A DNA stretch of 64,000 bases from Asterias amurensis (Eukaryota > Echinodermata > Asteroidea > Forcipulatida > Asteriidae), in assembly GCF_032118995.1 (NCBI RefSeq), contig NC_092663.1, positions 1 to 64,000 on the forward strand, given 5' to 3'. Positions 698 through 54,379 of the stretch are shown piece by piece. Position 1 is the stretch's first letter; every line of letters starts with the position of its first letter. The notes under the pieces are model-generated. The model saw nothing but the letters and a program-made list of their open reading frames with translations, was not told where the DNA came from and did no database searches. The translations under genes and the position numbers were made by a program.

Positions 698-738
<41 letters not shown>

Positions 739-10276: not shown

Positions 10277-10278
10277 AA

Positions 10279-10375
10279 GTGTCGTGGCCGAGCGGTTAAG
10301 AGCACCGAATTCAAACTCGGGTGTTTCTGATCAGCAGGGTTCGAATCCCCAGACACTTGACCATTGCTTCGTCCA
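10279..10375 (+). mobile_element. Leu-tRNA-derived SINE fragment
   Basis: The first 78 bases read as a tRNA-Leu-like head. GTGGCCGAGCGGTTAAG is the D-arm and A-box, followed by a CAA anticodon region and the T-arm GGGTTCGAATCCCC, with acceptor ends GTGTC/GACAC. The text after it (CCATTGCTTCGTCC) matches the tail that follows the same head at 44147-44292. That makes it a SINE copy more probably than a functional tRNA gene. The anticodon stem needs a bulge to pair, which also argues against function. Confidence 0.65.
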
Positions 10376-13085: not shown

Positions 13086-13714
13086 TAAATAGAAACTTTT
13101 GTATATATAATTGCAACGACATTTCACATTACATTAATGTGGTTATGTAAAAGCATAACCAAGAATTACAGGCCAAAGTTTGACAGCAACAAGAAAACAT
13201 TTTCACATATTATGACAACAACACTTCTCAGAGTGCATTTTAAGTCTATTAGCCTGTTAAACAGGAACTTATTTTCAGGCAGGTAAACTTAACTATATTC
13301 ACACATTGAATGCACCCCAAAAAGTTCAGGTGGTTTTTCAAGACCTGACTGAATGCCAGCTTTCAGCTTTTATCAAGATAACTCTCAATAACAAAGATAA
13401 CTACAAATGGGGTCTAAGGACATTTCAGCAGGTCAAATGGACACACCCACTAATAATAAGTTTTATCAGGTTAAAGATTCAAATGGGGTCTGCGGCCATT
13501 GACCGGTGGTTTACAAAATGTATGACAGTACCCATGCCTCGATACATGGCACTTTACAAAGTCTTTTCATCGTGCTTTTTTAAGGTTCACTCTCCAGCTG
13601 ATAATAAAAGCTCTACGTTGAGGTACCTGAACATTTAATGACTGTCAAATATGTTACTTGACATTCAGTGTAGTAGTTTCAGTTACTAGGTACATAAATT
13701 AACTATTTTTGGTT
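13086..13714. other. No gene seen
   Basis: AT-rich DNA. The 110-codon open frame at 13306-13638 (+) lacks recognisable motifs, and no other copy in the window supports its frame. I do not call it. Confidence 0.5.
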
Positions 13715-14084
13715 AAACACACTGCACACCATTGTCAACGACCAAATCTTCTCACATGCTGTATCTGAAAATATACAAAACAAAACAAACCTGTGAAAAC
13801 TTTAGCCCAATTGGTCGTGGAGGGTTCCGAGAATAATTGACGAAAAAACACCCTTGTCACATAAAGTTGTGTGCTTTTAGATGGTGCATTTAGAGACCTT
13901 ATTCATTCGAAATCTGAGATCTCAAAATCCAATTTTTGGAAAATTAATTCTGTCTAGAAACTACTCTACTGCAGAGGGAGCCGTTTCTCACAATGTTTTG
14001 TACCATCAAGTTCTCCCCATTACTCATCATCAATTTAATGCCAATAATTATTTTTAGTAGTTTACCAAGGTGTCCACTGCCTTT
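13715..14084 (-). mobile_element. MITE family A, diverged full-length copy
   Basis: The left end has a decayed terminal repeat (ACACTGCACACCATTG) and the right end keeps GTGTCCACTGCCTTT. The interior keeps AACAAACCTGTGAAAACTTTAG, the ACACCCTTGTCACA block and the GAGGGAGCCGTTTCTCACAATGTTTT block of family A. There is no coding capacity, as expected for a non-autonomous element. Confidence 0.85.
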
Positions 14085-15199
14085 CACTTTACTAAATTAC
14101 CTACAGTACAAATAAAGTTTACTTCAAAGAAAATTCAGTGTTCTTTAATTACAATTTACTGTAGTTTAATAAAAGTATGTACTTCAAGGAAAATTTACAG
14201 CACTTGTTTTACAATATGTAATTCAGGGAAATTTACTATACTTTAATTACAGTATGTACAGAAACACCTTTACAATTTTAAATCACACTTTCATGTTATT
14301 TTCAAAATTAGGTTTGATTATTAAAGTCACTGTATTTTGTGTAAAATTGCTGTTTTAATTCTATGAATTTAATATTATTGTTGGTTTCTTTCTAAAGGAA
14401 TAAAATAAGTGTCTTTGTTTCAAAACAACAGGTCATCAACAAAATTTGTTTCATTTATGTTTTGATAATGTATTGTTCTTTCAGTCCTCAAATTTGGACA
14501 CTTTGAAAAGCAACAACACCATTTACTGACTGTTTTGGAAAACTTCACATTTGGAAACAATGTTTTTCACCTGTTTCCTGTCAACTTGAAACTTTTAATG
14601 ATCGAGCAGCAACTTTGCTTTTGTTTATGTTTTCAGGACTTACCAAGTAAATCAGATTACATAATGCTGCTTCTTAATATAATAATTTTTATTTTATTTT
14701 TGTTACTTTTTTTCATTACTAATATTTGTTGACATGTTGTTATATTTCGACCTTTTGGGTGTAAAGCTTGTATTCAGTTTTCGGCCTGATATATACTTAC
14801 ATCAGTTTATTTCACATTTCATATTTCATTGATGTTCTATTTGCATTTAAAACAACGCAAACAGTTATCTCTGATGCATTAATTTACAATGCCTTGTAGC
14901 TAGTCTAACAATACTTTAATAATCAGTACCCACAAAATGCAAGGACTGGTATAAAATACAAGTCTACTTTCAAGCGCCACCCAGACTTCGCGTACGTTTA
15001 ACGAATGTACAAATGGCTTGAGCCCATGCTTTTCTTCCAGGAGTATCTCGACATCGTACACTTGTTTCACGGATTGTACAATACAAGCTTTTTTGTAAGA
15101 AAGGATCTACACATAATAATATAGCTTCTGTCCCAAGAAGTAGTCAATAAGGTTACTTTCTACTTTGATACTTGAGCCTATTTTATGTCGTTTCAACAG
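14085..15199. other. No gene seen; internal short duplications
   Basis: The interval 14090-14250 repeats a motif of the type TTTACTTCAAGGAAAATT three times at irregular spacing, which suggests an old degenerate tandem repeat. Acceptor-like pyrimidine tracts followed by CAG occur near 14484 and 14636. No coding frame is supported. Confidence 0.45.
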
Positions 15200-17130: not shown

Positions 17131-17472
17131 ATACACTGGACACCTTTGGTAATTGTCGAAGACCAGTCCTTTCACTTGGTGTATCTCAACATACTCATAA
17201 AATAATAAATCTGTAACAATTGGAGCTCAATATTTATCGAAGATAACAGACAATAATGGAAGAAAAAACAGCAAACGTTGTGTATTTTCAGATTCTTTAA
17301 TTTAAGACCTCAGCTGAGGTCTCAAATTCAATTCTAAATATGTTGCTTCAGAGGGAGCTGTTTCTCACAATGTTTTATACTATCAACAGATCTCCATTGT
17401 TAGTTACTACTAAGTAAGTTTGTATGCTAACAATTAATAATTTTGAGTAATTACCAATAGTGTCCAGTGCCA
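17131..17472 (-). mobile_element. MITE family A copy
   Basis: The ends read ACACTGGACACCTTTGGTAATTGTC (left) and AATTACCAATAGTGTCCAGTGCC (right), the family A terminal inverted repeats. The internal palindromic core AAGACCTCAGCTGAGGTCTC (17306-17325) is nearly perfect here. It carries no coding frame. Confidence 0.88.
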
Positions 17473-18333
17473 GTACCAAAACAAGGATATACTTCAGTAT
17501 ACGGATTTGTGAAGAATATATGACAATCAAAACCCACCGCAGAAAAATGTATGCTGCCATGGAATGTGAATCTGTTGAAATTGGTGCTTTCTTGCAGGTA
17601 AAATTTGAGTTCTGAAGCTTTGAAATTTTTCGGCCCCAGAAATGGACCCTGATATCCAGGACATCACTGTAGTACAATACGAAAGTGTAAGGCCTCCAGG
17701 GCTAAGTTCACAGGGAACTAGGATGGCCCAACGTTGATCACAGAGATCGACGCTCAGAGTGAGCTCACTGGGGTTGACAAGTGCTTGTTCATTATCAGTT
17801 GAATAGTCCACCTACTTTGGAAACTTGAATGAGACAAAGCAAAACACAGGCATGGGAATGGGCGATGATGAAAAAACAGGAGATCAATTTTGTACGAAAA
17901 AAACTGAACGCTTAACATGCGTGTCAGGATTTTGGGCAATGTCCATAATTTGGGCAAGCTAGCTAGGTGACCCAGGCGTCAGTGCTGCACCGAGTGAACT
18001 GTTGTCAGTTCCTTTTCTGCAAAATAGGTCAACTTACATTTTCAGATTAGAGAAGAGGGATATTAGCGAAATCCAAATGTACACTCAGGGCCTACAACTC
18101 ACCCCCCAAATTTTATATCAAATTCACACTGAACTCGAAGATCACAAATTTGAAAGGGGAAAAACAGGAATTCATGTTTAAACAGGAAAATTCTCATGCC
18201 TGAAAACAGTCGGCGTGCTAGTGCGTGCGTTTTGGCCTTGATAAATTTGCTAGTGCATCGGTCCTCCGAGGAGTGCATTTGGGAAGACAGGTTTGTTGAA
18301 GGTATTTCGATTGGATTTGACAAAGTGAGGCAA
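17473..18333. other. No gene seen
   Basis: Several overlapping short open frames on both strands (17527-17811, 18099-18512) run into the neighbouring MITEs and show no domain or conserved frame. I treat them as chance. Confidence 0.5.
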
Positions 18334-18723
18334 TTAAAGGAACACGTTGCCTTGGATCGGTCGAGTTGGTCTTTGAAAAGCGTTTGTAACCGTTTTTTAT
18401 AAAATGCATATGGGTAGAAAGATGTAGTACAAGTAGAATACAATGATCCACACAAACATGCCTCGAAATTGCGTGGTTTTCCTTTTACCTCGTCGACTAA
18501 CACGTCGGCCATTTATGGGGGTCAAAATTTTGACTCCCATAAATGGCCGACCGTGTTAGTTCTCACAGTAGAAGGAAAACCACGCAATTTCGAGGCAAAC
18601 TTGTGTGGATCATTGTATTCTACTTTTAAAACATCTTTCCAACCATATGCATTATATACAAAACGGTTACAAACGCTTTTGTTTTGACCAACTCGTCCGA
18701 TCCAAGGCAACGTGTTCCTTTAA
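18334..18723. mobile_element. Foldback MITE family D, near-perfect 390-bp palindrome
   Basis: The element runs from TTAA (18334-18337) to TTAA (18720-18723), and nearly the whole of it is one inverted repeat. Arms of about 190 bp meet at GTCAAAATTTTGAC (18521-18534). The termini are AGGAACACGTTGCCTTGG and its complement. Arm identity is high, with scattered substitutions and small indels. No coding potential; open frames here are mirror images produced by the palindrome. Confidence 0.95.
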
Positions 18724-22675: not shown

Positions 22676-23076
22676 TTAAAGGCAGTGGACACTATTGGTA
22701 ATTACTAAAAATAGTTATTGGCATAAAACCTTTCTTGGTAACGAGTAATGGATATAGGTTGATGGTATAAAACTTTGTGAGAAACGGCTCCCTCTGAAGT
22801 GCCATAGTTTTCGAGAAAGAAGTAATTTTCCACAAATTTGATTTCGTGACCTCGAGTTAAGAACTTGAGGTCTTGAAATCAACCATCTAAACACACACAA
22901 GTTCGTGTTGCAAGGGTTGTTTTTCTTTCATTATTATCTCGCAACTTTGATGACCGATTGAGCTCAAATTTTCACAGGTTTGTTATTTTATGCATACAGT
23001 ATGTTGAGATACATGTACACCAACTGTGAAGGCTAGTTAGTCTTTGACAATTACCAATGGTGTCCACTGCCTTTAA
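22676..23076 (+). mobile_element. MITE family A, best-preserved copy
   Basis: This is the reference copy in the window: TTAA, then AGGCAGTGGACACTATTGG..., ending CCAATGGTGTCCACTGCCT and TTAA. Terminal inverted repeats run about 25 bp. The centre holds a second inverted repeat around GAGTTAAGAACTTGAGGTC. The length is about 393 bp between the TTAA duplications. The TTAA target and short length suggest a non-autonomous element mobilised by a piggyBac-type transposase. The CCY terminal motif usual in that superfamily is not seen, so the assignment is inference. Confidence 0.92.
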
Positions 23077-24060: not shown

Positions 24061-25405
24061 CGCACCGTGGCTTTGAAGACAACACAAAAAAGAACAACAC
24101 TAATGCATGCAAGGCAGTATGACAGTCTGATGGTCAACAAACTCCTACAATATCAAGCAAATCTGAAAATGAACAAGCACATAAAGATTTCTTACATGTA
24201 CACATTTACAACTTCAATAATGAATCATACTGTCTTGCATAGCATTTTTGGGACGGGAAAGGTGCACAAATACATAACTCTCATCCATTCATTCGTTCAT
24301 TCATTCATTCTATCTACTGTACACAACTAAATGATATGGTTTCATGGATAATGTATAGGAGCAAATAGAGTCCATTTCATACTGTAACAACTACACTTAA
24401 AACATTATGAAGTATCAAACACTTTTCAGTTACAAAATGAAATTCATTTACAATTTGTACAACAATCATTCATAACTCCTAACAAAATACATACGTGCAG
24501 GGATACATCTATATAGACCACACACACAAATGTTTGTCATTGGATTAGGGAAAAATGCTTCAAGTGTCATCATTTGTAGGTACCAGAAAAAATCATTCAC
24601 AGCACGTCTGTGGAAATGTTTTTTTTTTCAAGGAAAAGTAACGGAGGACAGGATTTAAATCTACATGGCATTATCTGCATTTCAGTGTTGGGTATACAAG
24701 TTTCTGTGTCTTTTGCATATTCATGGAGAGCATTTTTTCCAAGGACAAGCATCTATGAGTGATTATAGTACAACAAATATTGAATACATTTCCTTTTTGC
24801 ATTGTCAGAACTTGATCAATCTGCACCATGCATTCTCATATGCATCCAATGTTTGCATTTAACACAACTAACCATAGTCCTTTGATAATACTTGCTCCTT
24901 CAGTGATGTCAAACATTTCACATAGACAAATCCTAAGAAACATGAAAAAAAAGACACATTCAATTTAAATGTTTTATAAAACTATTTATGAACAATGACA
25001 CACAGCATTACAAAATGATTCTGAACTTGTAGGTGACATTAACATAAAGAGACCCAGTTAAGGAAAGGACATACAAAAAAAATGAATCACAGTTGTGGGT
25101 ACTCTTTGTTCGTTGATGCATGGTGCACAATTTCAATAATCATGAAAACAGATTACTTTGTTTTCAATACTTCATATTCATGGACTCACAGTCTGGTGTC
25201 TCTATTAATTCAGACGTTTTTCCCTTCATCTCAAACTAGGGTTTCTTTTTAGCTCTTTTTGCATTCGATTTTGTTATGTGCGCACATGATTGCGTTTTTC
25301 TCGTTCAGTCATTCAATGTTGCTTCGCTTTAGGCATTCTATTTCATTTATCATGTTTATAGGTAATCAAGACTTCACTTTGACCATTCTTAAGTTGAATT
25401 TCTAT
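24061..25405. other. No gene seen; (CATT)n at 24284-24310
   Basis: AT-rich single-copy DNA containing a short CATT microsatellite with one CGTT interruption. Short open frames at 24067-24330 and 24665-24862 (+) show no domain. Confidence 0.55.
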
Positions 25406-25630
25406 AGGCTCTTTGTCTGGAATATGAATTCCCTAAATGAATCAGAGAAGCAATGAAGCAGCACACAGTGATCTCCTGCATACATGGTGGTATGGATAGC
25501 AAAGGGTGTGTGTGTGGGGGGGGGTGGGGTAGGCTCTTTCTCTGGAATATGGATTCCCTAAATGAATCACAGAGGCAATGAAGCAGCACAAAGTGATCTT
25601 CTGCATACATGGTGGTATGGATAGCAAAGG

Positions 25631-25661
<31 letters not shown>

Positions 25662-25786
25662 GGGGTTAGGGTTAGGCTCTTTGTCTGGAATATGGATTCC
25701 CTAAATGAATCAGGCCATAAAGCAGCACACAATGATCACCTTCATACTTGGTGGTGTGGATAGCCAAGGGTGGGGGGGGGGGGGGG

Positions 25787-25810
25787 TTAGGGGGTTAGGG
25801 GGTTAGGGTT
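25787..25810 (+). repeat. Interstitial telomere-like TTAGGGGG repeats
   Basis: Two TTAGGGGG units and one TTAGGG sit at the end of a minisatellite unit. The 8-mer is the same variant as the 9861-9947 block at the telomere base, but here the G-rich strand is +, the reverse of the terminal orientation. GGGTTAGGGTTAGG also occurs at 25664-25677. Confidence 0.9.
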
Positions 25811-26065
25811 AAGCTCTTTGTCTGGAATATGGATCCCATAAATGAATCAGAGAGGCACTGAAGCAGCACACAGTGATCTCCTTCATACTTGATGGTGTGG
25901 ATAGCAAAGGGTGTGTGTGTGGGGGGGGGGGGGTGAGGGTTAGGCTCTTTGTTTGGTATGGAAGTTCTCTAAATGAATCAGAGAGGCCATGGAGCAGCAG
26001 ACAGTGATCACCTTCATACTTGGTGGTATGGATAGCAAAGGGTGTGGGGGGGGGGTTAAGGTTAG

Positions 26066-26347
26066 CAGGGGTCGAAATTGCCACTAGCCCGCTAGCCCGG
26101 GACTACCAGATTTACAGCCGGGCTACTGATTTTTCCAGTTTGATAGCCCGACGGGCTAGTGGAAAAACAAAGCAAAAATCATCATTACAAATAACAAAGA
26201 ACTGTGCTATGGTGTATTGTAAAGTTTGAACCGTGACGTGAGACATAATGTGTCTTTCGGGCTACCAAAATCTCATCAGGGCTACTAAAAATTATTGGTT
26301 ACTAGCCCTGCTGACTACCATGACAATACACTTAATTTTGACCCCTG
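26066..26347 (+). mobile_element. MITE family B (CAGGGG...CCCCTG), 282 bp
   Basis: Terminal repeats CAGGGGTCGAAATT and AATTTTGACCCCTG bound the element. GGTTAG is present on both sides (26060-26065 and 26348-26353) as the apparent target duplication. The left third is dense in GCTAGCCCG-type self-complementary words. The 44689-44971 copy is nearly identical along its whole length. CAGGG ends are typical of hAT elements, but those usually make 8-bp duplications, so the superfamily is uncertain. Confidence 0.92.
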
Positions 26348-27506
26348 GGTTAGGCTCTTTGTCTGGAACATGGAAGTTCCTAATGGAAGTTCCTAAATGA
26401 ATCAGAGATGCAATGAAGAAGTCAACAGTGATCAACTTCATACTTGTGGTGTGAATAGCAAAGGGTGGAGGGGGTGGGGGAGGGGTAGGGTTAGGCTCTT
26501 TGTCTGGAATATGGATTCCCTAAATGAATCAGAGAGGCAATGAAGAAGTCAACAGTGATCAACTTCATACTTGTGGTGTGAATAGCAAAGGGTGGAGGGG
26601 GTGGGGGAGGGGTAGGGTAAGGCTCTTTGTCTGGAATATGGATTCCCTAAATGAATCAGAGAGGCAATGAAGAAGTCAACAGTGATCAACTTCATACTTG
26701 TGGTGTGAATAGCAAAGGGTGGAGGGGGTGGGGGAGGGGTAGGGTTAGGCTCTTTGTCTGGAATATGGATTCCCTAAATGAATCAGAGAGGCAATGAAGA
26801 AGTCAACAGTGATCAACTTCATACTTGTGGTGTGAATAGCAAAGGGTGGAGGGTGTGGGGGAGGGGTAGGGTAAGGCTCTTTGTCTGGAATATGGATTCC
26901 CTAAATGAATCAGAGAGGCAATGAAGAAGTCAACAGTGATCAACTTCATACTTGTGGTGTGAATAGCAAAGGGTGGAGGGGGTGGGGGAGGGGTAGGGTT
27001 AGGCTCTTTGTCTGGGTGGATTCCATAAATGAATCAGAGAGGCAATGAAGAAGTCAACAGTGATCAACTTCATACTTGTGGTGTTATAGCAAAGGGTGGA
27101 GGGGGTGGGGGAGGGGGAGGGGTAGGGTAAGGCTCTTTGTCTGGAATATGGATTCCCTAAATGAATCAGAGAGGCAATGAAGAAGTCAACAGTGATCAAC
27201 TTCATACTTGTGGTGTGAATAGCAAAGTGTGGAGGGGGTGGGGGAGGTGTAGGGTAAGGCTCTTTGTCTGGGTGGATTCCATAAATGAGTCAACGAGGCA
27301 ATAAAGAAGTCCACAGTTTGTCAAATATTGGTAAACCAGGGTGTTTCAACCATAAGGATTGTAGCTAGACTCTTTCATTAATTTGTTTATTGAATTGTTG
27401 TTGATGTTAGCAGGGATTCTGGCATGTGTATGTGTGTGTACTCCAGCTTATCACAACTAGCCATTCTACACTATACACAGCTAGTGAAGAAATTAAATGC
27501 TGGTGT

Positions 27507-28867: not shown

Positions 28868-28960
28868 TCACAAAATGTCACCACTCAGAGTCGAACCCAT
28901 ACTCTGATGATCAGAAACACCAGAGCTTGAATTTGGTGTTCTCATCAGCTCGGCCATGAC
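28868..28960 (-). mobile_element. Leu-tRNA-like SINE head
   Basis: On the minus strand it reads CATGGCCGAGCTGATGAGA, an anticodon region AATTCAAGCTC, CTGGTGTTTCTGATCATCAG and the B-box GGGTTCGACTCTG. The same layout occurs at 10279 and 44147. It sits convergent to the SINE body at 28530-28835, so the two are separate insertions. Confidence 0.65.
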
Positions 28961-31830: not shown

Positions 31831-32473
31831 CAAACCCGGGATTGTTGAGGTCCTGGGGAGAATGGTGGAAATTGCACTCTGTGTCCTATTAAACTAATTT
31901 TGACCATTTAAAATATTGCCTTGACGGGAACAGCCCTTGACTAATATTATAGTGGTTATAATGTTTACAAGTTGGCAATATCTTAAAAGAAGTATTCAAA
32001 GTGTACAGAGGTAACACAACTTCTCAGACTGAGTGCACATTGCTTAAGAGTTTTGGCAATATCTCAACTTCTCAGATTGTGTACTACTATGGGACTCTCT
32101 TCTCTCAGGAATTTTTGCAATAATATCTCAAAAGAAGTATAAGAAGCGTTACCGCAATATCTCTAACTGTGTCTTGATCTAGGGATAATTATTCTTATAG
32201 TTTTGGCAATAAAGTAGTGCAGCTAAGCTTGAGTGCAGTGGCTTTGGGTTAAAGTAAAATGTGTTTTAAGACATTTTTCACTAGTGGCAAAGAAAAAGCA
32301 ATTTCTTTTACAGGGGTATTTTATTATTTTAAAATCTTAATTACCACAAAGTTGTTTCTTGTTTCACATGACCAAGGTATTTATTTCACACTAAGCCATA
32401 AACATAAATGTGGCAAAATAAAATGAACATTTTGAAAATACTATACACATAACGGGCAAAAAACACTTAAAAG

Positions 32474-32846
32474 TTAAAGACAGTGGACATTATTGATAAC
32501 TAGTTTTCACAGTTGATGTATCTCAACATATATGCATAAAATAACTAACCTGTAAAAATTTGAGCTCGATCGGTGTCAAAGTAGAGAGATAATAATGAAA
32601 GAAAAACCACCGTCACACAAAGTTGTGTGCTTTCGATGCTTGATTTCGAGACCTCAAATTCTAAATCCGAGGTCTTGAAATCAAATTCGTGGAAAATTAC
32701 TTCTTTCTTCAAAACTATGGCACTTCAGAGGGAGCCATTTCTCACAATGTTTTATACCATCAACTTCTCCCAATTACTCATTACCAAGTAACATTTTATG
32801 CTAATAATTATTCTGAGTAATTACCAGGAGTGTCCACTGCCTCCAA
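32474..32846 (-). mobile_element. MITE family A copy, with empty site in copy 2
   Basis: TTAA (32474-32477) then AGACAGTGGACATTATTGA; the right end is GTGTCCACTGCCT followed by CCAA. The matching place in duplication copy 2 (about 51630) reads straight through without the element. That shows it inserted after the duplication, or was cleanly lost from copy 2. The right-hand CCAA is probably a mutated TTAA. Confidence 0.9.
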
Positions 32847-34737: not shown

Positions 34738-35403
34738 ATTACGTATTCTGTCTACAAAATAAGTTGAACAAGGCAGCTTGAAGCAGGAACTTCATCACAT
34801 CAAGACATCACTACAACTCAACAACTTAAAGACCTTAAATTCCTACAGCCAGCCCAAGCCATTCCTCATCACACCAGTAGACAAAAGTCCGCAGTTCAAG
34901 GCTACCATCACCCTTCCAAACATCGGCCATGCATCTCACAAGCTCCAACGAATCGTCAGCCAAGCTCAACTCAAGACCTTCCCAGAAACAAACAAGATTC
35001 AAACATCACTTCACACAGACGACCAGCATTCCCTCCGAATGCGATGACACAGAGGAGACCTGCTGCATTCATATCCATGAGAATAAAGCACACGGCAGTC
35101 TGGGACACCATGACAAATCAGCCTTGATCAAACACTCACACAAACAAAGGGTCTTTCAGAGCCAACACTCACACAAAAGAGTGTACCCACAAGTCAAATA
35201 TACATATTTATAGTTTCTTCCTATTTCTATTTACCATGCAAAGCTTCAAGCAATACTATAAATATTCAAGTCATTGTTCCACAATAAGAAAACTTTGTTG
35301 TGTAAGTGAGTTCAATCTGCAGATGAATCTGGATGATCATGCTGTAACATCAAGATCCATTGGAAGATTTGTTCAATGTTGTTCATGCTCTTGGAAAGTC
35401 TAC

Positions 35404-36074
35404 TCATTGGTCAAAGTACATCCTTAGTAACAGTCGAAGCTGGTGGATATGACCTTTGATGAGGGCAGTCATCATGAAGAAACAGTCCTCTTTACAAAGA
35501 CGGTGTTGAAGCAACAGTTTCATTGGTGCTGCATAATGTGGCTCAGCATCTTGACGTAACCAGCTCTTAGTTGTTCCACTCTGTTCATCCTGTAATATGG
35601 TATAAAACAAAATTGAAACAAAAAGATTTGTAAGTTCAATTTTTGTGTTTAAGCAAAGTTTATTTTCCGCACGTTAATGGATTTCTCAGATTTATTAGCT
35701 AAAAGAGATCTTACCTTCAAGGATCCTGGTAAGTAGTTGTAGAAATACTTAATGTATATCTCCTCAAGCCATGACGTATCTAACTTTGTGTTGTGATGTC
35801 ACATCTTCATGGTCCATGTTGACAGGATGGCAGAAAAGTAGTCATCACATAACCTGTATGTAAGTAGTAGAGCGACAGGTTGTCTTTAGCCGACGCCATC
35901 TTGAGAACCTCTGATGGCAGCCTTCTACGCCCCGTCCAGCATCAGCATCTTAAGCTCAGTTGTTTCTGGTTGTGTGCTGTGTCATTCAGCTGATGTAAGA
36001 ATGCTACATCAATGGCCATTGGTAGCATTCTTGTATAGACCCCGTCTAGCGGATGACCTCTAGGGGTGCGCCAT
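35404..36074 (-). pseudogene. Decayed 3' end of unknown gene, copy 1
   Basis: Three minus-strand exon-like blocks have good splice signals. The first starts at 36074 after CTTTCAG and encodes GAPLEVI before stops. The second (35853-35715) ends at donor AAG/GTAAGA and contains CDDYFSAILSTWTMKM, an in-frame TGA, then DTSWLEEIYIKYFYNYLPGS. The third (35589-35404) follows ATTACAG, joins in phase 0, and encodes 61 residues beginning DEQSGTTKSWLRQDAEPHYA and ending at TGA. Copy 2 repeats all three blocks with indels. I do not recognise the protein. The in-frame stop and copy differences favour a pseudogene. Confidence 0.5.
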
Positions 36075-36389
36075 CTGAAAGAAAGTTGTTATCACATCAG
36101 TACAAACCATATAGAGACTAATATAATGTAACCATCTGATGATCATTACGGGACTACTGCTTCAAAATAAAATCACAAAATTAGCTCAAAAATTGAGTTC
36201 AAACACTACTTTTCATGAACAAGTTTGAAGTTTCTGTCATCTCAAAGATGCAGACTGTTAAAAAGATTGATGCAACAAACTCTATGCACAATCCTTTAAA
36301 GTTATGTTATTACATGTGTAACATCTGTTTTAGTTTTATGTCTAAAGAAATATAGTTGCCATTATTACATCTGTTGTTGATCCATCAGA

Positions 36390-39300
36390 CTGCAATGAAT
36401 TCTCTCATCCACCAGGGAGACAGGAACACAGGAACACTCCTCTATGAAGCCAGGCAACCAGCGGTTGTCTTCTTGGTCATCGGTGGATGGACGTCACCAG
36501 CACGAACGCAGATGCCATTGATGTGCAGTCTTCATTGGACTCCGTACTTCACAGGCAGTTGGTTTCGCATTTCACCATTGCAGTAAATAAAAGACAAAAA
36601 ATAGATACATTCAGAAAATGTACTTCCAAATAGAACTATTCCATTTAGTTTGGGAATAATTTAGGTCAACATAAATGTGGGTTTCAGTTTTTTTATCATA
36701 TTATCCGTTAGGGTTTATTTCTTTGAATTTTTAGAGAGTCAAATATTTCTCATAAGCTCGTTTGTCTGCATTTAGCAAATCGTACAAAAAAATTGTAAAT
36801 TTTTCGTTAAACTTTGATGAACACTGATGAACACATCAGAGGAAAGAAAGGAATGTATAGGTTTTGTTCAGGGTTAAACTGCATGGTTTTATTGAGCTAG
36901 TTTTGTTTGGGCATTCAAAATAAGCCACATTAAGTTTTCAAAACCACTTTCTTTTACGACCTAATACTTATATGGACAGTAATAACTTATGCTGTATTTT
37001 ACTTCCTTAAGTCCTCTTACCCGGAAACTTGCATCCTCAGACAATAAGACACCCTCGTCCTCCTTCCATGATCCTTGGTAGCCATTATGCTTGTGACATC
37101 ACCTGTATATGGAGAATCATTCAACAACTGCATCACTAAGTTAGTTCAAAAATTGAGTTCAGTCGCTGCTTTTCAGCAACAAGTTTGAACTATTTATGTC
37201 ATCTCAAAGACATCGATTGTTGTAAAAAGATTGACGCAACAAACTTTCTGCGCAATCCTTTAAAGTTATGTTATTACATGTGTAAAATCTGTTTTTGTTT
37301 CATTTCAAAACAAGTATAGTTGCCATTATTACATCTGTTGTTGATCCATCAGACTTCAATGCATTCTCTCATCCACCAGGGAGACAGGAACTATCCTCTA
37401 TGAAGCCAGGCAACCAGCGGTTGTCTTCTTGGTCATCGGCGGATGGACGTCACCAGCACGAACGCAGAGGCCATTGATGTGCAGTCTTCATTGGAGTCCG
37501 TACTTCACAGGCAGTTGGTTTTCGCATTTCACCATTGCAGTAAATAAAAGACAAAAAATAGAAACATTCAGAAAATGCACTTCCAAATATTATTATCCCA
37601 TTTAGTTTGGGAAAAATTTAGGTCAACCTAAAGTTGGGTTTGAGTTTTTCTATCATATTATTTGTTAGGGTTTATTTCTTTGAATTTTTAGAGAGTCAAA
37701 TATTTCTCATTAACTCGTTTGTCTGCATTAAGCAAATCGTAATGAAAATTGTAAATTTTTCGTTAAACTTTGATGAACAGTGATATACACATCAGAGGAA
37801 AGAAAGGAATGTTTAGGTTATGTTAAGGGTTAAACTGCATGGTTTTATTGAGCTAGTTTTGTTCGGGCATTCAAAATAAGCCACATTAAGTTTTCAAAAC
37901 CACCTTTTTACGACTTAATACTTATGGACATTAACAACTTATACTGTATTTTACTTTCTTAAGTCGTCTTACCTGGAAACTTGCATCCTCAGTCCATAAG
38001 ACTACCTCGTCCTCCTTCCATGATCCTTGGTAGCCATTATCCTTGTGACATCACCTGTATATGGAGAATCATTCAACAACTGCATCACTAAGTTAGTTCA
38101 AAAATTGAGTTCAGTCGCTGCTTTTCAGCAACAAGTTTGAACTATTTATGTCATCTCAAAGAGATCGATTGTTGTAAAAAGATTGACGCAACAAACTTTC
38201 TGCGCAATCCTTTAAAGTTATGTTATTACATGTGTAACATCTGTTTTAGTTTTATGTCAAAACAAGTATAGTTGCCATTATTACATCTGTTGTTGATCCA
38301 TTAGACTGCAATGCATTCTCTCATCCACCAGGGAGACAGGAACTATCCTCTATGAAGCTAGGCAACCATCGGTTGTCTTCTTGGTCATCGGCAGATGGAA
38401 GTCACCAGCACGAACGCAGATGCCATTGATGTGCAGTCTTCATTGGACTCCGTACTTCACAGGCAGTTGGTTTCGCATTTCACCATTGCAGTAAATAAAA
38501 GACAAAAAATAGATACATTCAGAAAATGCACTTCCAAATAGAATTATTCCATTTAGTTTAGGAATAATTTATATGAACATAAATGTGGGTTTGAGTTTTT
38601 CAATCATATTATTCGTTAGGGTTTATTTCTTTGAATTCTTAGAGAGTCAAATATTTCTCATCAACTCGTTTGTCTGCATTTAGCAAATCGTATAAAAATT
38701 GTAAATTTTTCGTTAAACTTTGATGAACACTGATGAACACTGATGAACACATCAGAGGAAAGAAAGGAATGTTTAGGTTCTGTTAATGGTTTAACTGCAT
38801 GGTTTATTGAGCTAGTTTTGTTTGGGCATTCAAAAAAAGCCACCTTAAGTTTTCAAAACCCGTTTTTTTTGCGACTTAATACTTATGGACAGTAAAATAA
38901 CTTATACTGTATTTTAAGTCGTCTTACCCGGAAACTTGCATCCTCAGACCATAAGACACCCTCGTCCTCCTCCCATGATCCTTGGTAGCCATTATCCTTG
39001 TGACATCACCTGTATATGGAGAATCATTCAACAACTGCATCACTAAGTTAGTTCAAAAATTGAGCTCAGTCACTGCTTTTCAGCAACAAGTTTGAACTAT
39101 TTAAGTCATCTCAATAACATTGATTGTTGTAAAAAGATTGACGCAACAAACTTTTTGCGCAATCCTTTAAGTTATATTATTACATGTGTAAAATCTGTTT
39201 TAGTTTTATGTCAAAACAAATGTAGTTGCCATTATTACATCTGTTGTTGATCCATCAGACTGCAATGCATTCTCTCATCCACCAGGGAGACAGGAACACT

Positions 39301-39444
39301 CCTCTATGAAGCCAGGCAACCAGCGGTTGTCTTCTTGGTCATCGGCGGATGGACGTCACCAGCACGAACGCACATGCCATTGATGTGCAGTCTTCATTGG
39401 ACTTCGTACTTCACAGGCAGTTGGTTTCACATTTCACCATTGCA
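36390..39444 (-). pseudogene. Exon-like block Y, one per 955-bp unit (four)
   Basis: Blocks at about 36390-36583, 37349-37541, 38304-38486 and 39258-39444 contain, on the minus strand, ATGGTGAAATG(C/T)GAAACC and then a frame reading HINGICVRAGDVHPPMTKKT and TAGCLAS. In every unit the frame is broken by the same TGA after NCL, the same shift before KYGVQ, and the same TAG after CLAS. Unit 1 has a further 8-base insertion. The relative at 41562-41735 keeps an intact frame here (VKCGTNCHWNTHYGVQWKLH). Shared lesions mean the block was already broken before it was amplified. Confidence 0.5.
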
Positions 39445-39961
39445 GTAAATAAAAGACAAAAAATAGATACATTCAGAATATGCACTTCCAAATAGAATTA
39501 TTCCATTTAGTTTGGGAATAATTTATATGAACATAAATGTGTGTTTGAGTTTTTCTATCATATTATTCGTTAGGGTTTATTTCTTTGAATTTTTAGAGAG
39601 TCAAATATTTCTCATCAACTCGTTTGTCTGCATTTAGCAAATCGTATAAAAATTGTAAATTTTTCGTTAAACTTTGATGAACACTGATGAACACATCAGA
39701 GGAAAGAAAGGAATGTTTAGGTTCTGTTAAGGGTTAAACTGCATGGTTTATTGAGCTAGTTTTGTTTGGGCATTCAAAATAAGCCACATTAACTTTTCAA
39801 AAGCACTTTTTTCTACGACTTGATACTTATGGACAGTAAAATAACTTCTACTGTATTTTACTTTCTTAAGTCGTCTTACCTGGAAACTTGCATCCTCAGA
39901 CCATAAGACACCCTCGTCCTCCTTCCATGATCCTTGGTAGCCAGTATCCTTGTGACATCAC
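37021..39961 (-). pseudogene. Exon-like block X, 82 bp, one per unit (four)
   Basis: The blocks are 37021-37102, 37973-38054, 38928-39009 and 39880-39961. All are exactly 82 bp, lie between TA(T)ACAG-type acceptors and GTAAGA donors, and are better conserved than the spacers. One frame is open in all four from GTCACAAG to the donor, reading (D/H)(N/T)GYQGSWKEDEGVLWSE and then DASF(Q/R). Differences are mostly single residues. The same frame has a TGA just inside the first acceptor, so the true acceptor may be the ACAAG 12 bases further on. The product is unknown to me. Confidence 0.5.
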
Positions 39962-40098
39962 CTGTATGGAGAATCATACAATAACTGCATTCAAACCGCA
40001 AAATTAGCTCAATCATTGAGTTAATGTAACATGACATCATCGGACATAAAAAAAAATGGGTATGTACATTCCCAAGAGGAATTTCTGTGTCAGTCACA

Positions 40099-40426
40099 TT
40101 AAAGCCATTGGACCCTTTCGGTAAACAGTATTGTCCAAGTCCCACACTTCGTGTATCACAACTTCTATATCAAATAACAAACCTGTGAAAATTTAGGCTC
40201 AATCGGACAGCAGAGTCCGGAGAAAATAAAGGGAAAACCCACACCTGTTTTCGCGCGTTTCGCCGTGTCATGACATGTTTATAACAAATCCGTAATTCGA
40301 GCATTTATATTGTTTTACCGTTTTCTCAAAAAGTAAAGCATTTCATGGACTAATTTTTCAAGAGAAGTGTTTCACCATTACCTTCTGTAAACCCTGTAAA
40401 TTATGTAAAGGGTCCAATGGCTTTAA
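40099..40426 (+). mobile_element. MITE family C, TTAA-flanked
   Basis: TTAA (40099-40102), then AGCCATTGGACCCTTTCGGT, and GGGTCCAATGGCT before TTAA (40423-40426). The interior shares ATAACAAACCTGTGAAAATTT and a GCTCAATCGG-like word with family A, so the two families are related although their termini differ. Non-coding. Confidence 0.92.
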
Positions 40427-40792
40427 CTCAGATGTAATGCCCTTTGGATTGAATGATCAGAGTTTCAAAATGAAATTAACAATTTATGTACAACAATTTA
40501 TCGACCATGTATTTCAAAATATGGTGATATCCACTATTGTTTTATTTCTATAAAATAAATTGTTGGGCATCAGACATAATGGCTTTTTACACCATTACAA
40601 TATGAAGTCAGAGACCCTTCCCCCCAATAAACAATTTTATTGAAAAATAGTGAATCCCCCAGCTCAATTTGACCTTTGCAGGAGCCCCTCTTTAACATAA
40701 ATTAACAAGTTATCATCATTTCAGGAAAATCCTTTACAAATTACGGCCCTGAATGAACTTCCAAACTATTAACATCATGCAAATAAACTTAC

Positions 40793-40881
40793 CCTCAGGT
40801 TGTATTCCTGAACTTTAAAATGAGTGTCGTTTCCTCACAGCATACCTCCACTCACCACAGCTCCAATGGTGTCATCAGGGT
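40793..40881 (-). pseudogene. Exon-like block Z
   Basis: The block runs from acceptor TTTTCCAG (first base 40881) to donor CTGAGG/GTAAGT (last base 40793). It encodes DDTIGAVVSGG and then, after a shift, DTHFKVQEYNLR. A close relative lies at 41562-41640. The frameshift and TGA suggest decay. Confidence 0.4.
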
Positions 40882-41118
40882 CTGGAAAACAGCTGAAGGG
40901 AATGAAACATAAAAGATGTTGTAAGGGTATCAAACATAATGGCATTTTACACCATTATCAAATGAAGTGAGAGACCTCCCCCCCCCCCCAAAAAAAAAAA
41001 AAAAAAACCCAAAAGAACTCAACAATTTTCATATCAATTTGAAAAGTAGTGAAGAGCAAAACTCAATTTGACATTGTTCTTTGCCTGATGCTCTCTTTAA
41101 GCAATAGCACATCATCGA

Positions 41119-41467
41119 TAAAACAGTATTGTCCAAAGACCCACAGTTCGTGTATCACAACTTGTACACAAACCTGTGAAAATTTAAGCTCAATCGGTCA
41201 TCAGAGTCGGGGGAAAAATAACGGGAAAACCCACCTATGTTTACGCACGTTTCGCCGGTCACAACAAGTGTTTATAATAATCAGTCGTTCTCAATATTGA
41301 GAATTGATAATTGTATTAATGTCTTCTCAAAAAGTGAAGCATCTCATGGAATAATATTTCACAGGGAAGTCTTCAACCATTACCTTCTGTAAAACCTGTG
41401 AGTTATTTATTAATCTTTGAACTTTAATTTGTTGTTCTGTTCAAAAAGTGTTCATTGGCTTTAACCA
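41119..41467 (+). mobile_element. MITE family C, diverged copy
   Basis: It carries AAACAGTATTGTCCAAAGACC, TCGTGTATCACAACTTG, AAACCTGTGAAAATTTAAGC and the right end TTCATTGGCTTTAA. The left terminus is eroded. A central palindrome AATTCTCA-like stem is at 41289-41306. Confidence 0.8.
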
Positions 41468-41561
41468 AAATTAACCAAATATGATAATTTCAGGATTTTT
41501 GGTTTACAATTTTGGTCCTGCAAGAACTTTTAAACTATAAACATCCTGAACATAAACTTAC

Positions 41562-41735
41562 CTTCAGGTTCTATTCCTGAACTTTAAAATGTGTAAGTGT
41601 TGTTTTCCTCACAGCAACCTCCGCTCACCACAGCTCCAATGAAGTCTTCATGGCCCTGGAATGACTGGTGCAGTTTCCATTGGACTCCATAATGCGTATT
41701 CCAATGGCAGTTGGTTCCGCATTTCACCATTGCAG
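41562..41735 (-). pseudogene. Exon-like Y+Z relative without intron
   Basis: An ATG at 41730 opens MVKCGTNCHWNTHYGVQWKL, followed by a stretch reading HEDFIGAVVSGGCCEENN, ending at TAA. A donor AAG/GTAAGT lies at 41562. In this copy the block-Y and block-Z matches are contiguous in one frame, which suggests either loss of an intron or the more complete ancestral exon. Its upstream boundary has no clear acceptor. Confidence 0.4.
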
Positions 41736-42060
41736 TAAATAAAGAACAGAAAATACATACATTCAGAAAATGCACCTCCAAACACAATGATTCCATTTAG
41801 TTTGGGAATATTTCAGGTGCATATAAATGGTGTGAGTGGTTGTTACATGACAAGTGACTGATAACGGATGGTGTGGAGTTATAGATGGGGTACGTTTTCG
41901 CTGTCGTATAACGAACCCCTGATTGTTAAGATGTAACATGCAAGCATGGAAATGAGCTTAGTAGATTTTAAAGTGATGGTGTAGATGGGAGTGAGCTTGT
42001 TAATCATGCAGTTTGGTGCAGGTTTGATGTTAGAGTGAATAAATGGTAATAATAATATAC

Positions 42061-42180
42061 CTTTAGGATGGACGTAATCCCTCTGTGCCGTAATACCACG
42101 AGATTACAGTGGTTGCTGGGTCTGTCATGAGAGAGCATGTAGATGAGAAGGACTCCATCCCAGGTCCTCAATCTCAGTCA
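42061..42180 (-). pseudogene. 120-bp exon-like block, copy 1
   Basis: This block runs from acceptor ACATGCAG (first base 42180) to donor CTAAAG/GTATAT (last base 42061). The copy 2 equivalent (53872-53991) has identical length and three substitutions. The frame that fits the phase of the next exon ends ITAQRDYVHPK but has two stops upstream. Another frame is open throughout after a first TGA (TWDGVLLIYMLSHDRP...). The surrounding intron is equally well conserved, so there is no sign of selection. Confidence 0.35.
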
Positions 42181-42445
42181 CTGCATGTTGGGAAATAAAG
42201 ATAACATTCTCAAAGTTGTGAAACATTTTTGCCAACACCAGAGTAAAAGATGGTAGCTCCAGTGGTTAGAGAGTAGTTTTGGAACGAGGGGCAAGGTGCT
42301 AAATAAAGTACTTGAACGAGACTGAATGCATTGGAATGCCAATTACATGTAAACTTGCTTATAATACGTTTGTCATGTTATTGTATTTTTGGTGCATTTA
42401 CACTTCTAGTTTTCCTGCCGTTATCATTCACAAAAACTACTAAGC

Positions 42446-43280
42446 ATGTAGAACTACAGCACCTCAGATAGTAATATTTTTAGGAAAGCTTTACACAATC
42501 ATTATCTCTGGTGTAAGTTAAATGTAAATCTGCGGACATCGTCTTTTGTGTTACCAAAGTATCCAAATCCTTTAATTTTTAAACAGAAGTAAAGATCACA
42601 CACTTTGTGTAAGCTTTAAAAAATAATATCCAGGGTCTTTCACAGGGTGCAAAGATCTTGCATGTAGCAACTACGGTTCTCCAGTAAATTTTTTGGTAAA
42701 AACTTAAACATTGATTTAAAGTTATAACGTCATCTAATTCCAAAACTTGTTAAGTTTTATTGCCACACTGAGGTCTAAGTTCAAAGTGAAACCCTAGCCT
42801 TTTTGGATCACACACTAAGCGCTGGAATCAAGAATCCATAACCATCCATATACTATAAAATAAACTTGTGTAGGCTTCTAACGAAATTTGTCTCATTAAC
42901 ATTATTTTTAAGAGTGGCCACTAACTGTTTAATTTTCTTTTATTAACCAGTCTTATAAAGATTAGGTTTCAAAGAAGTTTGACAAAGATCGGTTTCCCGT
43001 CCAAGTAGCTCATTCTACATGCAGGATTGTAAATGAATGATCGCTGGGGAGTATTTGGTTTTGGCAAAGTTGTTTCTTTAAATTAAAAGATATCACACCA
43101 GACACTATCCAATGTGAAACCATCCGAAATCTCATTGAACGCAGGAGTTGGCTGAAATTTAATTGTTTCTCTTTTGTGAACCATCCAATTCACCTTGGGG
43201 CATTTTTTTTTCTTCACCTGGGCTCTGTGACTTTCGCAATGGTTTTAAGGAATGCTCCCCATCCAAGCCCAGACCTTTTG
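42446..43280. other. No gene seen
   Basis: AT-rich DNA within duplication copy 1 that has no recognisable match in copy 2. No coding frame is supported. Confidence 0.45.
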
Positions 43281-43643
43281 AAGCCATTGGACCCTTTCGG
43301 TACAGACAAAAAAACAAAAGTTCACAGATTTGCAAATAATTTACAGGGTTTACAGAAGGTAATGGTGAAAGACTTCTCTTGAAATATTAGTCCATGAAAT
43401 GCTTTACTTTTTGAGAAAACAGTAAAACAATATAAATTCTCGTTAGCGAGAATTACGGATAATTATTTAAAACACATGTCATGACACGGCGAAACAAGAG
43501 TGGGTTTTCCCGTTATTTTCTCCCGACTCCGATGACCGATTGAGCCTAAATTTTCACAGGTTTGTTGTTTTATATATAAGTTGTGATACACGAAGTGTGG
43601 GACTTGGACAATACTGTTTACCGAAAGTGTATAATGGCTTTAA
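43281..43643 (-). mobile_element. MITE family C copy
   Basis: The left end AAGCCATTGGACCCTTTCGG and the right end TAATGGCTTTAA bound the copy. The interior, in reverse order relative to 40099-40426, keeps GATTGAGCCTAAATTTTCAC. The centre is a hairpin, AATTCTCG TTAG CGAGAATT-like (about 43434-43454). It is absent from duplication copy 2. Confidence 0.88.
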
Positions 43644-43735: not shown

Positions 43736-44146
43736 AACGAGCAGAGTATATTGGACACTGCTGGACCATAGAGCTAGGACCCTAGATCCATGGCTGGACA
43801 CAGTACTGCTGACCTTAAACAAGGTGAAGGCTTACCAATAAACCACTTATCACTCAGGTTGACTTCCCCTTATTAAACAGTAATCTATCTGGCTGTGTTC
43901 ATGATAGCCTTAGGAGGGTTTGGCAGTACAGCACAGTAACAACAATTTAAAACTAAGGTTATGGCTAGTTAGCAGAGAACTCCATGAGAACAAGGTCAAA
44001 AAGGATTGAAAAGGCAATTTCAAGGAGAATGATGAACTAGATGAAGATTTCATAGTGAGAGCATGTCAACTGCAGAGTTTCTGTAGTGTTTTACTTAATA
44101 CATGGAGGTATGCATTAGCCCACAAAGATAACCTGGAGTTGTGGAA
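43736..44146. other. No gene seen
   Basis: Ordinary AT-rich sequence between the duplication edge and the SINE. Confidence 0.45.
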
Positions 44147-44292
44147 GAGTAGTGGCCGAGCAGTACTGTCAAGAGCACCAAATTCAAACTCTGGTGTTTC
44201 TGATCAGCAGAGTGAGTGTTCAAATCCCCAGCCGTGCCACTTGTGTCCTTAAGCAAAACACTTAACCATTGCTTTGTCCTTCGGATGGGACG
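44147..44292 (+). mobile_element. Leu-tRNA-derived SINE, interrupted
   Basis: Head: GTGGCCGAGCAGT...AAGAGCACC, CAAATTCAAACTCTGG, TGTTTCTGATCAGCAG and a degraded B-box GTTCAAATCCCC. Tail: CTTGTGTCCTTAAGC, CACTTAACCATTGCTTTGTC and CTTCGGATGGGACG. It stops exactly at a TTAA where MITE family A is inserted. Confidence 0.8.
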
Positions 44293-44982
44293 TTAAAGGC
44301 AGTGGACACTATTGGTAATTACTCAAAAAAATTATTAGCATAAAACCTTTCATGGTGACGAGTAACAGGGCAAGGTTAATGGTATAAAACATCGTGAGAA
44401 ATTGCTCCCTCTATAGTGCCATACATGTAGTTTTCAAGAAAGAAGTAATTTTCCACAAATTTTACACATTTGATCACGAGACCTAAGATTTAGAACTTAA
44501 GGTCTCGAAATCAACCATAAAACAAACATAACTTTGTGTGACAGGGCGTTTTTTTTTCTTTCATTATTTTTCTCGCAAGATCGATGATCGTTTGAGCTCA
44601 AATTTTCACAAGTTTGTTATTTTATGCATTTGTTGAGATACACCAACTGTGAAGGCTAGTCTTTGACTATTACCAATAGCGTCCACTGCAGGGGTCGAAA
44701 TTGCCACTAGCCCGCTAGCCCGGGACTACCAGATTTACAGCCGGGCTACTCATTTTTCCAGTTTGATAGCCCGACGGGCTAGTGGAAAAATAATGCAAAA
44801 ATCATCATTACAAACAATAAAGAACTATGTTATTGGTGTATTGTAAAGTTTGAGCCGTGACGCGAGACATAATGTGTCTTTCGGGCTACCAAAATCTAAT
44901 CAGGGCTACTAAAAATTATTGGTCACTAGCCCTGCTGACTACCATGGAAATACACTTAATTTCGACCCCTGCACTGCCTTAA
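44293..44982 (+). mobile_element. MITE family A copy, split by family B
   Basis: TTAA (44293-44296) then AGGCAGTGGACACTATTGG; the right end CACTGCC precedes TTAA (44979-44982). The right terminal repeat is interrupted by the family B element at 44689-44971. Removing that element and one CACTG restores the terminal repeat. Order of events: SINE, then A, then B. Confidence 0.93.
44689..44971 (+). mobile_element. MITE family B, second copy, 283 bp
   Basis: CAGGGGTCGAAATTGCC at the left and AATTTCGACCCCTG at the right, with CACTG on each side (44684-44688 and 44972-44976) as target duplication. It differs from the 26066 copy by only a few substitutions. Confidence 0.95.
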
Positions 44983-46534: not shown

Positions 46535-47165
46535 TTGGATGGCCATGGATCCTCATTTTGTCACAAATTCTTAATAGGATTTCGTGTGTTAAATGCCCTC
46601 CATTAAGAACTGTGCTGGTAAAAATACCAAGATCTGATTGGTCAACCGCTCTCAAGCTTGGATCGTCACAAAACTCTTAATGGGATAACGTGTAGTAAAT
46701 GCTCTTCATTAAGAACTGTGCATGTAAAAATACAAAGATCTGATTGGTCGACAGCTCTCGAGCTTGGATCCTTGTTTTGTCACAAAATTCACAATGGGAT
46801 TTCGTGTGTTAAATGCCCTCCATTAAGAACTATACAGGAAAAAATACCAAGATCTGATTGGTCAACCGCTCTCGAGCTTGGATCCTTATTTTTGTCACAA
46901 AACTCTTAATGGGATTACGTGTAGTAATGCTCTTCATTAAGAACTGTGTAGGTAAAAATACCAAGATCTGATTGGTCGACAGCTCTCGAGCTTGGATCCT
47001 TGTTTTGTCACAAAGTTGTCACAAAATTCTTAATGGGATTTCGTGTGTTAAATGCCCTCCATTAAGAACTATACAGGAACAAATACCAAGATCTGATTGG
47101 TCAACCGCTCTCGAGCTTGGATCCTTCTTTTTGTCACAAAATTGCCAATGGGATTTCATGCGTGA
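46535..47165. repeat. Alternating two-type tandem repeat, about 5.5 units
   Basis: The word CATTAAGAACT recurs at 46601, 46707, 46821, 46935 and 47060. Type 1 units have TTAAATGCCCTC and GGTCAACCGCTCT; type 2 units have GTAGTAA(A)TGCTCTT and GGTCGACAGCTCT. They strictly alternate 1-2-1-2-1, so the amplified unit is a dimer of about 230 bp. Every unit holds GATCTGATTGGTC, an inverted CCAAT box. Open frames here (46658-46909, 46972-47217) are repeat-derived. Confidence 0.9.
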
Positions 47166-51640: not shown

Positions 51641-52574
51641 CAATAGTTAAGGTAATACGCATTAATAGGGCTTCTGAAAATAATTAGGTTAGAAGACAAT
51701 ACCAGTATGAAAACAAAAAGTTGCTACATAGATTGGTTTGGACAATCTCGCAAATACTTGGTACGCATGCATAGCATGGGGATCATGTTTGATTGCGAGC
51801 CGGATCAGCATGCAAACCAGTTCTGCACCGATGCAGAGTCAGGGGTGCCATTGAGATACAAGCACATCACACAGTTCCACAAGACATCACTCTAACTGAC
51901 AGGCATTACAGATCAAGAACAACTTGGATCCTTTCGCCCAAATGTGCATCACTCCAGTGCTACTTTGCTCCACCACCACTACTAGTCCAGCTTTCTCCTG
52001 ACGACGAGCGGAGTCTACTGTTCGAAATGTCGAGACCACACAGGATCTTTTCAGAGTCAACACTAACACAAACAAGAGTTACAAATTGTTGTACACGCAA
52101 GTTTACTATAATACTTATAGTTTCTTCCTATTTATCCACATCCTGCAAAGCTTCAAACAATACTAATATTCAATTCATTGTTCCACAATAAGAAAACTTT
52201 GTGTTAGTGAGTTCAATTTGCAGATGAATCCGGATGATCATGCTGTAATATCAAGATCCATTGGAAGATTTGTTCAATGTTGTTCATGCTCGTGGAAAGT
52301 CTACTCATTGGTCAAAGTACATCCTTAGTAACAGTCGAAGCTGGTGGATATGACCTTAGATGAGGGCAGTCATCATGAAGAAACAGTCCTCCTTTACAAA
52401 GACTGTGTTGAAGCAACAGTTTTATTGGTGCTGCATAATGTGGCTCAGCATCTTGACGTAACCAACTCTTAGTTGTTCCACTCTGCTCATCCTATAATAA
52501 CAGAAAATAAAAAAGATTTTAAAGTTAAATTTGTGTGTATTAGCAAAGTTTTAGCAAATATCAAAGCAAGCTTA

Positions 52575-52664
52575 GTCCTTTCACACAAGAGCACTTTAGC
52601 AAGGGTCCCTTGCTATTGTAGCCTGGTGGTAAAACTTAACAAAATGTTCCTTGTATGAAAGGAC
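52575..52664. mobile_element. Small TIR element, 90 bp
   Basis: GTCCTTTCACACAAG and CTTGTATGAAAGGAC form inverted ends, with one mismatch, around a perfect inner palindrome AGCAAGGGTCCCTTGCT (52598-52614). It lies in the part of duplication copy 2 that is absent from copy 1. Confidence 0.6.
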
Positions 52665-53159
52665 AACCATTTTTTTTTCTGTCCAAGTTCTCTTGCAAAA
52701 ACATTTCTACATTTTACAACAGGCTAAAATTAAGCAACAGACCCCAGTTAAGTTGCCGTCATGTGAATAGCACTTTAGCTTACAAAAGCCTTGCTTCACC
52801 CTATGCCTAGATGTTGTCCTGTTTGTCATTATTTACTCAACTTCGGTGTAAATTGTTATTGTCTTTACTACATCTGTGGTGTGCCATTATTTATTCATTA
52901 TCATGTATATTAAATTTAATGATGTACACAAATTAATGTAACTTTATGGCAACATTGAAATAAATATATTGAAATGAAAGAGATCTTTTACCTTCAAGGA
53001 TCCTGATAAGTAGGTGTAGAAACACTTAATGTCTATCTCCTCAAGCCATGACGTATCTCTCTTTGTGTTGTGATGTCACATCTTCATATGGTCCATGTTG
53101 ACAGGATGGCAGAAAAGTAGTCATCACAATCACCTGTATGTAAGTAGTAGTTGAGCGAG

Positions 53160-53480
53160 AGGTTGTCTTCAGCCGACACCATCTCAGGAACCTCTCCTGG
53201 TCGCTTTCCACGCTCCCTACAGCATCAGCATCTTAAGCTCAGTTGTTTCTGGTTGTGTGTGGTGTCCTTCTGCAGCTGATCTACGAATGTTAGTCTCCCC
53301 CTACCCTTGCTCCTGTTTTCAGCGATGGGTTCCAAGAGAACTAGGGGCTCACAGCTAGCTCTAGATGGCAGATACAGTGGCCAGCCAGCCTCATTCTTCG
53401 TTTCCTGATCTTGACAGATACTCTTGGTTGGGCATCAAAGAGCTGGAAGTTGGGCATAGATGGTCTTCCAAGTTTACATC
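53160..53480 (-). mobile_element. Non-LTR retrotransposon ORF2 C-terminal fragment
   Basis: Minus-strand translation gives KIRKRRMRLAGHC and, in a second frame, LVLLEPIAENRSKGRGRLTF then VDQLQKDT, and in a third LKMLML and GAWKATR. The pattern RRxRLAGHC ... LVLWEP..R.RGR...T(Y/F)VDQL..DT is the conserved tail of many metazoan non-LTR reverse transcriptase proteins. Only about 100 codons remain and the frame is broken at least twice. Duplication copy 1 keeps only the last part (about 35885-35985), so this insertion is older than the duplication. Confidence 0.75.
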
Positions 53481-53871
53481 AAGGGCCATTGGTAGCATTC
53501 TTGATATAGATGCCATCTAGCGCTCTTTCTTGAGCTGCATCAAGATCAGCACAATTTGCACCATCGGACTGAAGAGAAAGAATGACCTCTAGGGGAGCGC
53601 CATCTGAAAGAAAGTTGTAATCACATCAGTACAAACCATATAGAGTCTAATATAATGTAATCATCTAGTGATCATCACGGGACTACTGCTTCAAAATCAA
53701 ATCAAAATTAGCTCAAAAATTGAGTTCAATCCCTACTTTTCTAAGTTTCTGTCATCTCAAAGACGCAGACTGTATATTTTAAAGTGATGGTGTAGATGGG
53801 AGTGAGCTTGTTAATCATGCAGTTTGGTGCAGGTTTGATGTTAGAGTGAATAAATGGTGATAATAATATAC

Positions 53872-53991
53872 CTTTAGGATGGACGTAATCCCTCTGTGCC
53901 GTAATACCACGGGATTACAGTGGTTGCAGGGTCTGTCATGAGAGAGCATGTAGATGAGAAGGACTCCATCCCAGGTTCTCAATCTCAGTCA
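53872..53991 (-). pseudogene. 120-bp exon-like block, copy 2
   Basis: The counterpart of 42061-42180, with the same acceptor ACATGCAG and donor CTAAAG/GTATAT. Spliced to block 1 at 53603 it would read ITAQRDYVHPK then DGAPLEV in one frame, but TGA and TAA precede within the block. Three base differences from copy 1. Confidence 0.35.
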
Positions 53992-54379
53992 CTGCATGTT
54001 GGGAAACAAAGATAACATTCTCTAAGTTGTGAAACATGTTTGGCAACAACAATCACAGTAAATGAAGGTAGCTCCAGTGGTAAGAGAGTTAAGCAGCCCT
54101 GATGGGCCAGCACTAAGTGCTTAAAGAAGTGCTTGAATGAAAATGTTTGCATGGGAATGCTGTTTAAACTTGCTTATAATGTGTTTGTCATGGAATGTAT
54201 TTTTGGTGCATTTACACTTCTAGATCTCCTGTTGTTATCATTCACAAAACTAGGCCCCCACCCCAACATTTCTGCAGTTTCCCAAACTCTATTGCCTCAT
54301 GGGTGTTATAAGTAGTACACAGTGCTATCATGCTCTACGCCAAATGTAATCATTGGTCTTACCACAGTAATTACTTTTC

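Follow-up and report, generated by a model that had tools for sequence, protein, structure and literature searches.

Local tandem duplication of decayed exon-like sequence as the likely source of a four-unit array near a chromosome end of Asterias amurensis

Does a row of equal-length blocks with splice-like edges represent the exons of a gene, or can sequence that merely resembles exons be multiplied into such a row? The question is raised by the first 64,000 nucleotides of contig NC_092663.1 of the sea star Asterias amurensis (assembly GCF_032118995.1), which constitute the whole stretch analysed here (the window). An earlier note on this DNA described four tandem units of about 955 bp, each with an 82-bp block (X) and a broken companion block (Y), and proposed either an expanding repeat-domain gene that is now dying or an exon array in which the Y blocks are skipped. 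We consider it likely that the array arose by local tandem duplication, near the telomere, of exon-like sequence that was already dead. As a biological finding the array is ordinary. It indicates that dead exon-like sequence, once duplicated locally in tandem, can pass for an exon array, the edges and the length of the founder copy being carried along.

The array and its X blocks

The tandem array spans 36172-40022 and consists of four units of 952-960 bp, all read on the minus strand: unit 1 at 36172-37131 (960 bp), unit 2 at 37132-38083 (952 bp), unit 3 at 38084-39038 (955 bp) and unit 4 at 39039-39993 (955 bp), followed by a further partial copy of approximately 29 bp that reaches to about 40022. 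The unit boundaries were set by us from the repeat output, and the end of the array lies near 40022. The tandem repetition that had been claimed is plainly beyond chance: the pairwise identity among the four units is 91.5-95.3% (a divergence of 4.7-8.5%), and their alignment of 981 columns contains just 14 indel events. Unit 1 carries the most private changes (41), followed by unit 2 (26), unit 4 (19) and unit 3 (16). The array is located near the chromosome end, amid dispersed and tandem repeats and 26-30 kb from the telomeric TAACCC repeats that mark the start of the window (447-9863, approximately 9.4 kb).

The X block is present on the minus strand at 37021-37102, 37973-38054, 38928-39009 and 39880-39961 in units 1 to 4, respectively. 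Its constant length of 82 bp, with an acceptor (ATACAG before the block) and a GTAAGA donor after it, is seen in all four units, as had been stated. The accompanying claim that one frame is open in all of them fails. Frame 0 contains stops in every unit, frame 1 begins with TGA in every unit, and frame 2 is interrupted by a TAG in unit 2, whose X block consequently has no open frame. The open frame that was originally reported may have been frame 1 past its first codon, or frame 2 if the unit-2 stop is disregarded. In addition, 82 leaves a remainder of one when divided by three; therefore, X exons stacked in one transcript would shift the frame.

The constant length of X is not unusual in this alignment because 251 of 900 windows of 82 columns are gap-free; 104 of the 900 are both gap-free and at most as variable as X. 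As a control for the splice-like edges, we counted blocks of the form CAG, 60-110 bp, GTAAG in positions 9951-64000 and in 30 random sequences generated by a first-order Markov model of the minus strand. The minus strand has 40 such blocks, including 8 inside the array, and the plus strand has 53, compared with 29.9 (standard deviation 7.5) in the random sequences, and those with at least one open frame numbered 17 and 29, respectively, compared with 12.2 (standard deviation 3.8). The plus-strand counts lie well above the Markov model, which is therefore only a rough control. Splice-like blocks of this kind are common in the window, and the exon features of X are not demonstrated to exceed chance.

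When gapped columns are left out, 8 of 82 columns are variable in X, 15 of 186 in Y and 94 of 666 in the rest of the unit. X does not differ from the sequence outside X and Y (Fisher P = 0.39); as far as eight variable sites can tell, it diverges like the spacers, one of the two outcomes that the earlier note had named together as refuting its proposal. The comparison of synonymous and nonsynonymous change across the units, which the note had recommended, yields no bias toward silent changes. The ratios of silent to non-silent changes are 2/6 in frame 0, 1/7 in frame 1 (by eye the most protein-like of the three) and 2/5 in frame 2, whereas the expected silent fractions are 0.244, 0.213 and 0.253, and all three frames fit neutrality. 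X shows no sign of constraint at the protein level, and weak constraint is compatible with so few sites.

Y, the older copies and the paralogous block

The companion block Y, which by our delimitation measures 194, 187, 186 and 186 bp in units 1 to 4, contains stops in all three frames of every unit, and most of these stops are shared. Seven bases that are present in an older copy at 41.7 kb (Y′) are missing from all four units, which reflects either a loss in the units or a gain in Y′. Y is thus broken the same way throughout the array, as had been claimed, and because the units have these stops in common, the damage to Y probably preceded the expansion.

Older partial duplications, on the minus strand like the units, adjoin the array between 40.7 and 41.8 kb. 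An older diverged copy, Y′Z′, occupies 41459-41834, and an older duplication at 40690-40887 pairs with 41459-41661 at 80% identity. The part of unit 1 that matches Y′ (36523-36677) comprises the start of Y and its upstream flank; the corresponding minus-strand parts of units 2 to 4 are 37479-37623, 38431-38585 and 39385-39543. Across 155 aligned columns, the Y′ part at 41668-41834 is identical to the four units at 127-133. The start of the exon-like part brings no drop in differences, which number 15-20 of 99 columns upstream of it and 7-9 of 56 within it. The seven-base gap between Y′ and the units falls in the exon-like part, where unit 2 has one additional inserted base.

The region around the array (A, 35144-42435) has a paralog in the window. 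This minus-strand block (B, 52038-54249) matches 35144-36258 in four pieces and 41961-42435 in one piece, that is, on either side of the array; the identity across the five pieces is 86.3-89.6%, so that A and B differ by 10-14%. B joins 36258 straight to 41961 and is without the sequence from 36.26 to 41.96 kb. In B, the outer edge of unit 1 is continuous with the unique flank and the break falls within the unit; this gap would thus be explained more simply by a deletion in B than by an insertion in A. Given that the units differ by only 4.7-8.5%, the expansion is, judged from these divergences and absent gene conversion, younger than the split between A and B. Within the window, the unit recurs outside the array only as the Y′ part (approximately 160 bp) and as an 87-bp edge in B. 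No terminal repeats and no target-site duplication were seen by eye at the junction between A and B.

A and B are possibly remnants of a gene. B also includes approximately 182 bp that are absent from A (53293-53474); the translation of the stretch that holds them has no Pfam match, and we take it to resemble the C-terminal end of the reverse transcriptases of retrotransposons without long terminal repeats.

Identity searches and other features of the window

The Pfam searches returned no match for X, Y, Y′, Z and the flank pieces tested (7 of 8 pieces in one run and 6 of 6 in another). The eighth piece came from an unrelated open reading frame (18102-18512); its two matches, with E = 0.041 and 0.098, were weak and fell below their cut-offs. 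A sequence search of the PDB produced nothing for X and nothing for a flank composite; another composite matched five sequences (best E = 0.068) and Y′ matched ten (best E = 0.024), all of which were judged chance. At gathering scores, Rfam gave no match in the window. Among viral contigs, there was no exact copy of a 26-base stretch of X, and none of 9 stretches fitting Y′ peptide patterns was confirmed. The literature on echinoderm and sea-star chromosome ends contained nothing on this locus among the matches listed.

Several other features of the window were recorded. Distal to the clean TAACCC telomere, positions 1-416 consist of irregular TAAAGT-like hexamers in tandem (82% matches), which may reflect miscalling at the end of the telomere; basecalling errors in telomeric repeats have been described for nanopore data (PMC9414165), and the excerpt of that paper does not name a TAAAGT-like motif. 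Dispersed repeats of approximately 300-400 bp, found in both orientations and linked by self-matches, lie at 40099-40404, 41121-41464, 43278-43643 and 44292-44689, with further members at 32473-32842, 22676-23070, 13712-14087 and 17134-17471. ARAGORN predicts a tRNA-Leu (CAA) at 10277-10359, and similar sequence occurs at 44145-44231 and 28901-28960, which points to a short tRNA-derived element or to pseudogenes. An imperfect palindrome of 390 bp is found at 18334-18723 (87% self-complementary), and minisatellites are found at 25405-27317 (units of approximately 125-131 bp) and 46558-47157 (units of approximately 114 bp).

Competing explanations and known systems

According to the explanation that we favor, a segment of approximately 955 bp near the chromosome end would have been copied into four tandem units, unequal crossing-over or replication slippage being the simplest mechanisms. 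The founder segment would already have contained decayed exon-like pieces, namely X, with its splice-like edges, and the broken Y, both of which would once have been exons. The 82-bp length and the CAG and GTAAGA motifs would have been inherited from the founder copy and still not lost, the copies would since have accumulated their present divergence, and no useful transcript would come from the array. Since the edges and the length come from the founder, the four X blocks are one ancestral block that was copied and count as one observation instead of four independent ones. Pseudogene fragments are known to amplify by local or subtelomeric duplication.

A number of observations weigh against this explanation. 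The splice-like edges of X have been retained in all four units, and the frame-1 peptide past its first codon appears protein-like by eye and is open in all four; therefore, X could be used through an acceptor or a start inside the block. Variable columns are scarcer in X and Y combined than in the rest of the unit (23 of 268 columns vs. 94 of 666, P = 0.022), and also in Y alone (P = 0.034). Furthermore, in three of the five pieces matching between A and B, and with block bounds chosen by eye, the exon-like flank blocks differ at 15 of 354 positions compared with 111 of 918 elsewhere (P = 9e-6) and contain 1 of the 62 gap columns, a hint that a real gene surrounds the array. We do not claim a working gene from this conservation, considering the bounds and the pieces used, an intron-like stretch (41965-42069) that is equally conserved between A and B (1 of 105), and the 1- and 2-base indels inside the exon-like blocks.

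A gene whose repeated domain was encoded by X and Y, and which was alive during the expansion and died afterwards, would accommodate part of this evidence. The older copies Y′ and Z adjoin the array, protein-like peptides can be read in Y′, Z and X, X and Y are slightly less variable than the rest, and the seven extra bases of Y′ could have been inserted there instead of being deleted from the units. The dying repeat-domain gene of the earlier note thus stands to the extent that X, Y, Y′ and Z have the appearance of decayed exons; however, the stops of Y are common to the units and most simply predate the expansion, and X has no common open frame. We regard a gene that was alive during the expansion as improbable. 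An origin of the array as part of a transposable element or as a young subtelomeric satellite, in place of gene debris, is also very unlikely. Dispersed repeats of approximately 300 bp do lie nearby at 40.1, 41.1, 43.3 and 44.3 kb, a stretch of B at approximately 53.3-53.5 kb resembles a retrotransposon, and the pieces tested had no Pfam match, but the near absence of unit copies elsewhere in the window and the lack of visible terminal repeats or a target-site duplication at the A/B junction argue against this origin.

The second proposal of the earlier note, an exon array with skipped Y blocks, is unsupported: X has no common frame, its changes have no silent bias and its length is not divisible by three. 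The length and the lack of a frame open in all four units led us to reject a stack of X exons that leaves out Y. A living gene that includes one X per transcript by mutually exclusive splicing, with Y skipped, would explain the equal length, the homology and the retained splice-like edges of the four blocks. Nevertheless, no X frame passes in all four units under the frame and stop criteria given in the excerpt of PMC3228551, the changes are not biased toward silent ones, and the whole region is absent from B, all of which make such a gene highly improbable. We give no more credence to the idea that the array is transcribed as noncoding RNA, or belongs to a fast-changing gene that enters the X exons inside the block, with the retained splice sites joining different X blocks.

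Duplication of already dead sequence, the explanation that we prefer, can be compared with two known systems. Tandemly duplicated exons are abundant, according to the excerpt of PMC9013439, and mutually exclusive exons are recognized as homologous blocks of similar length that keep their splice sites and reading frame, an in-frame stop disqualifying a candidate (PMC3228551, in the part available). Similar to mutually exclusive tandem exons, such as those of Dscam, the array presents homologous blocks of equal length in a row, with the 82-bp length and the splice-site pattern shared by all four. Unlike such exons, X keeps no stop-free frame in all of its copies, and the present case is known from sequence alone. 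Compared with duplicated pseudogene fragments, the array lacks an identified source gene, the pieces tested having no Pfam match. In the remaining respects listed here it resembles them: its exon-like pieces are broken, Y has disabled frames with lesions common to the copies in all four units, older partial duplicates lie nearby, and a paralog with a large gap is present.
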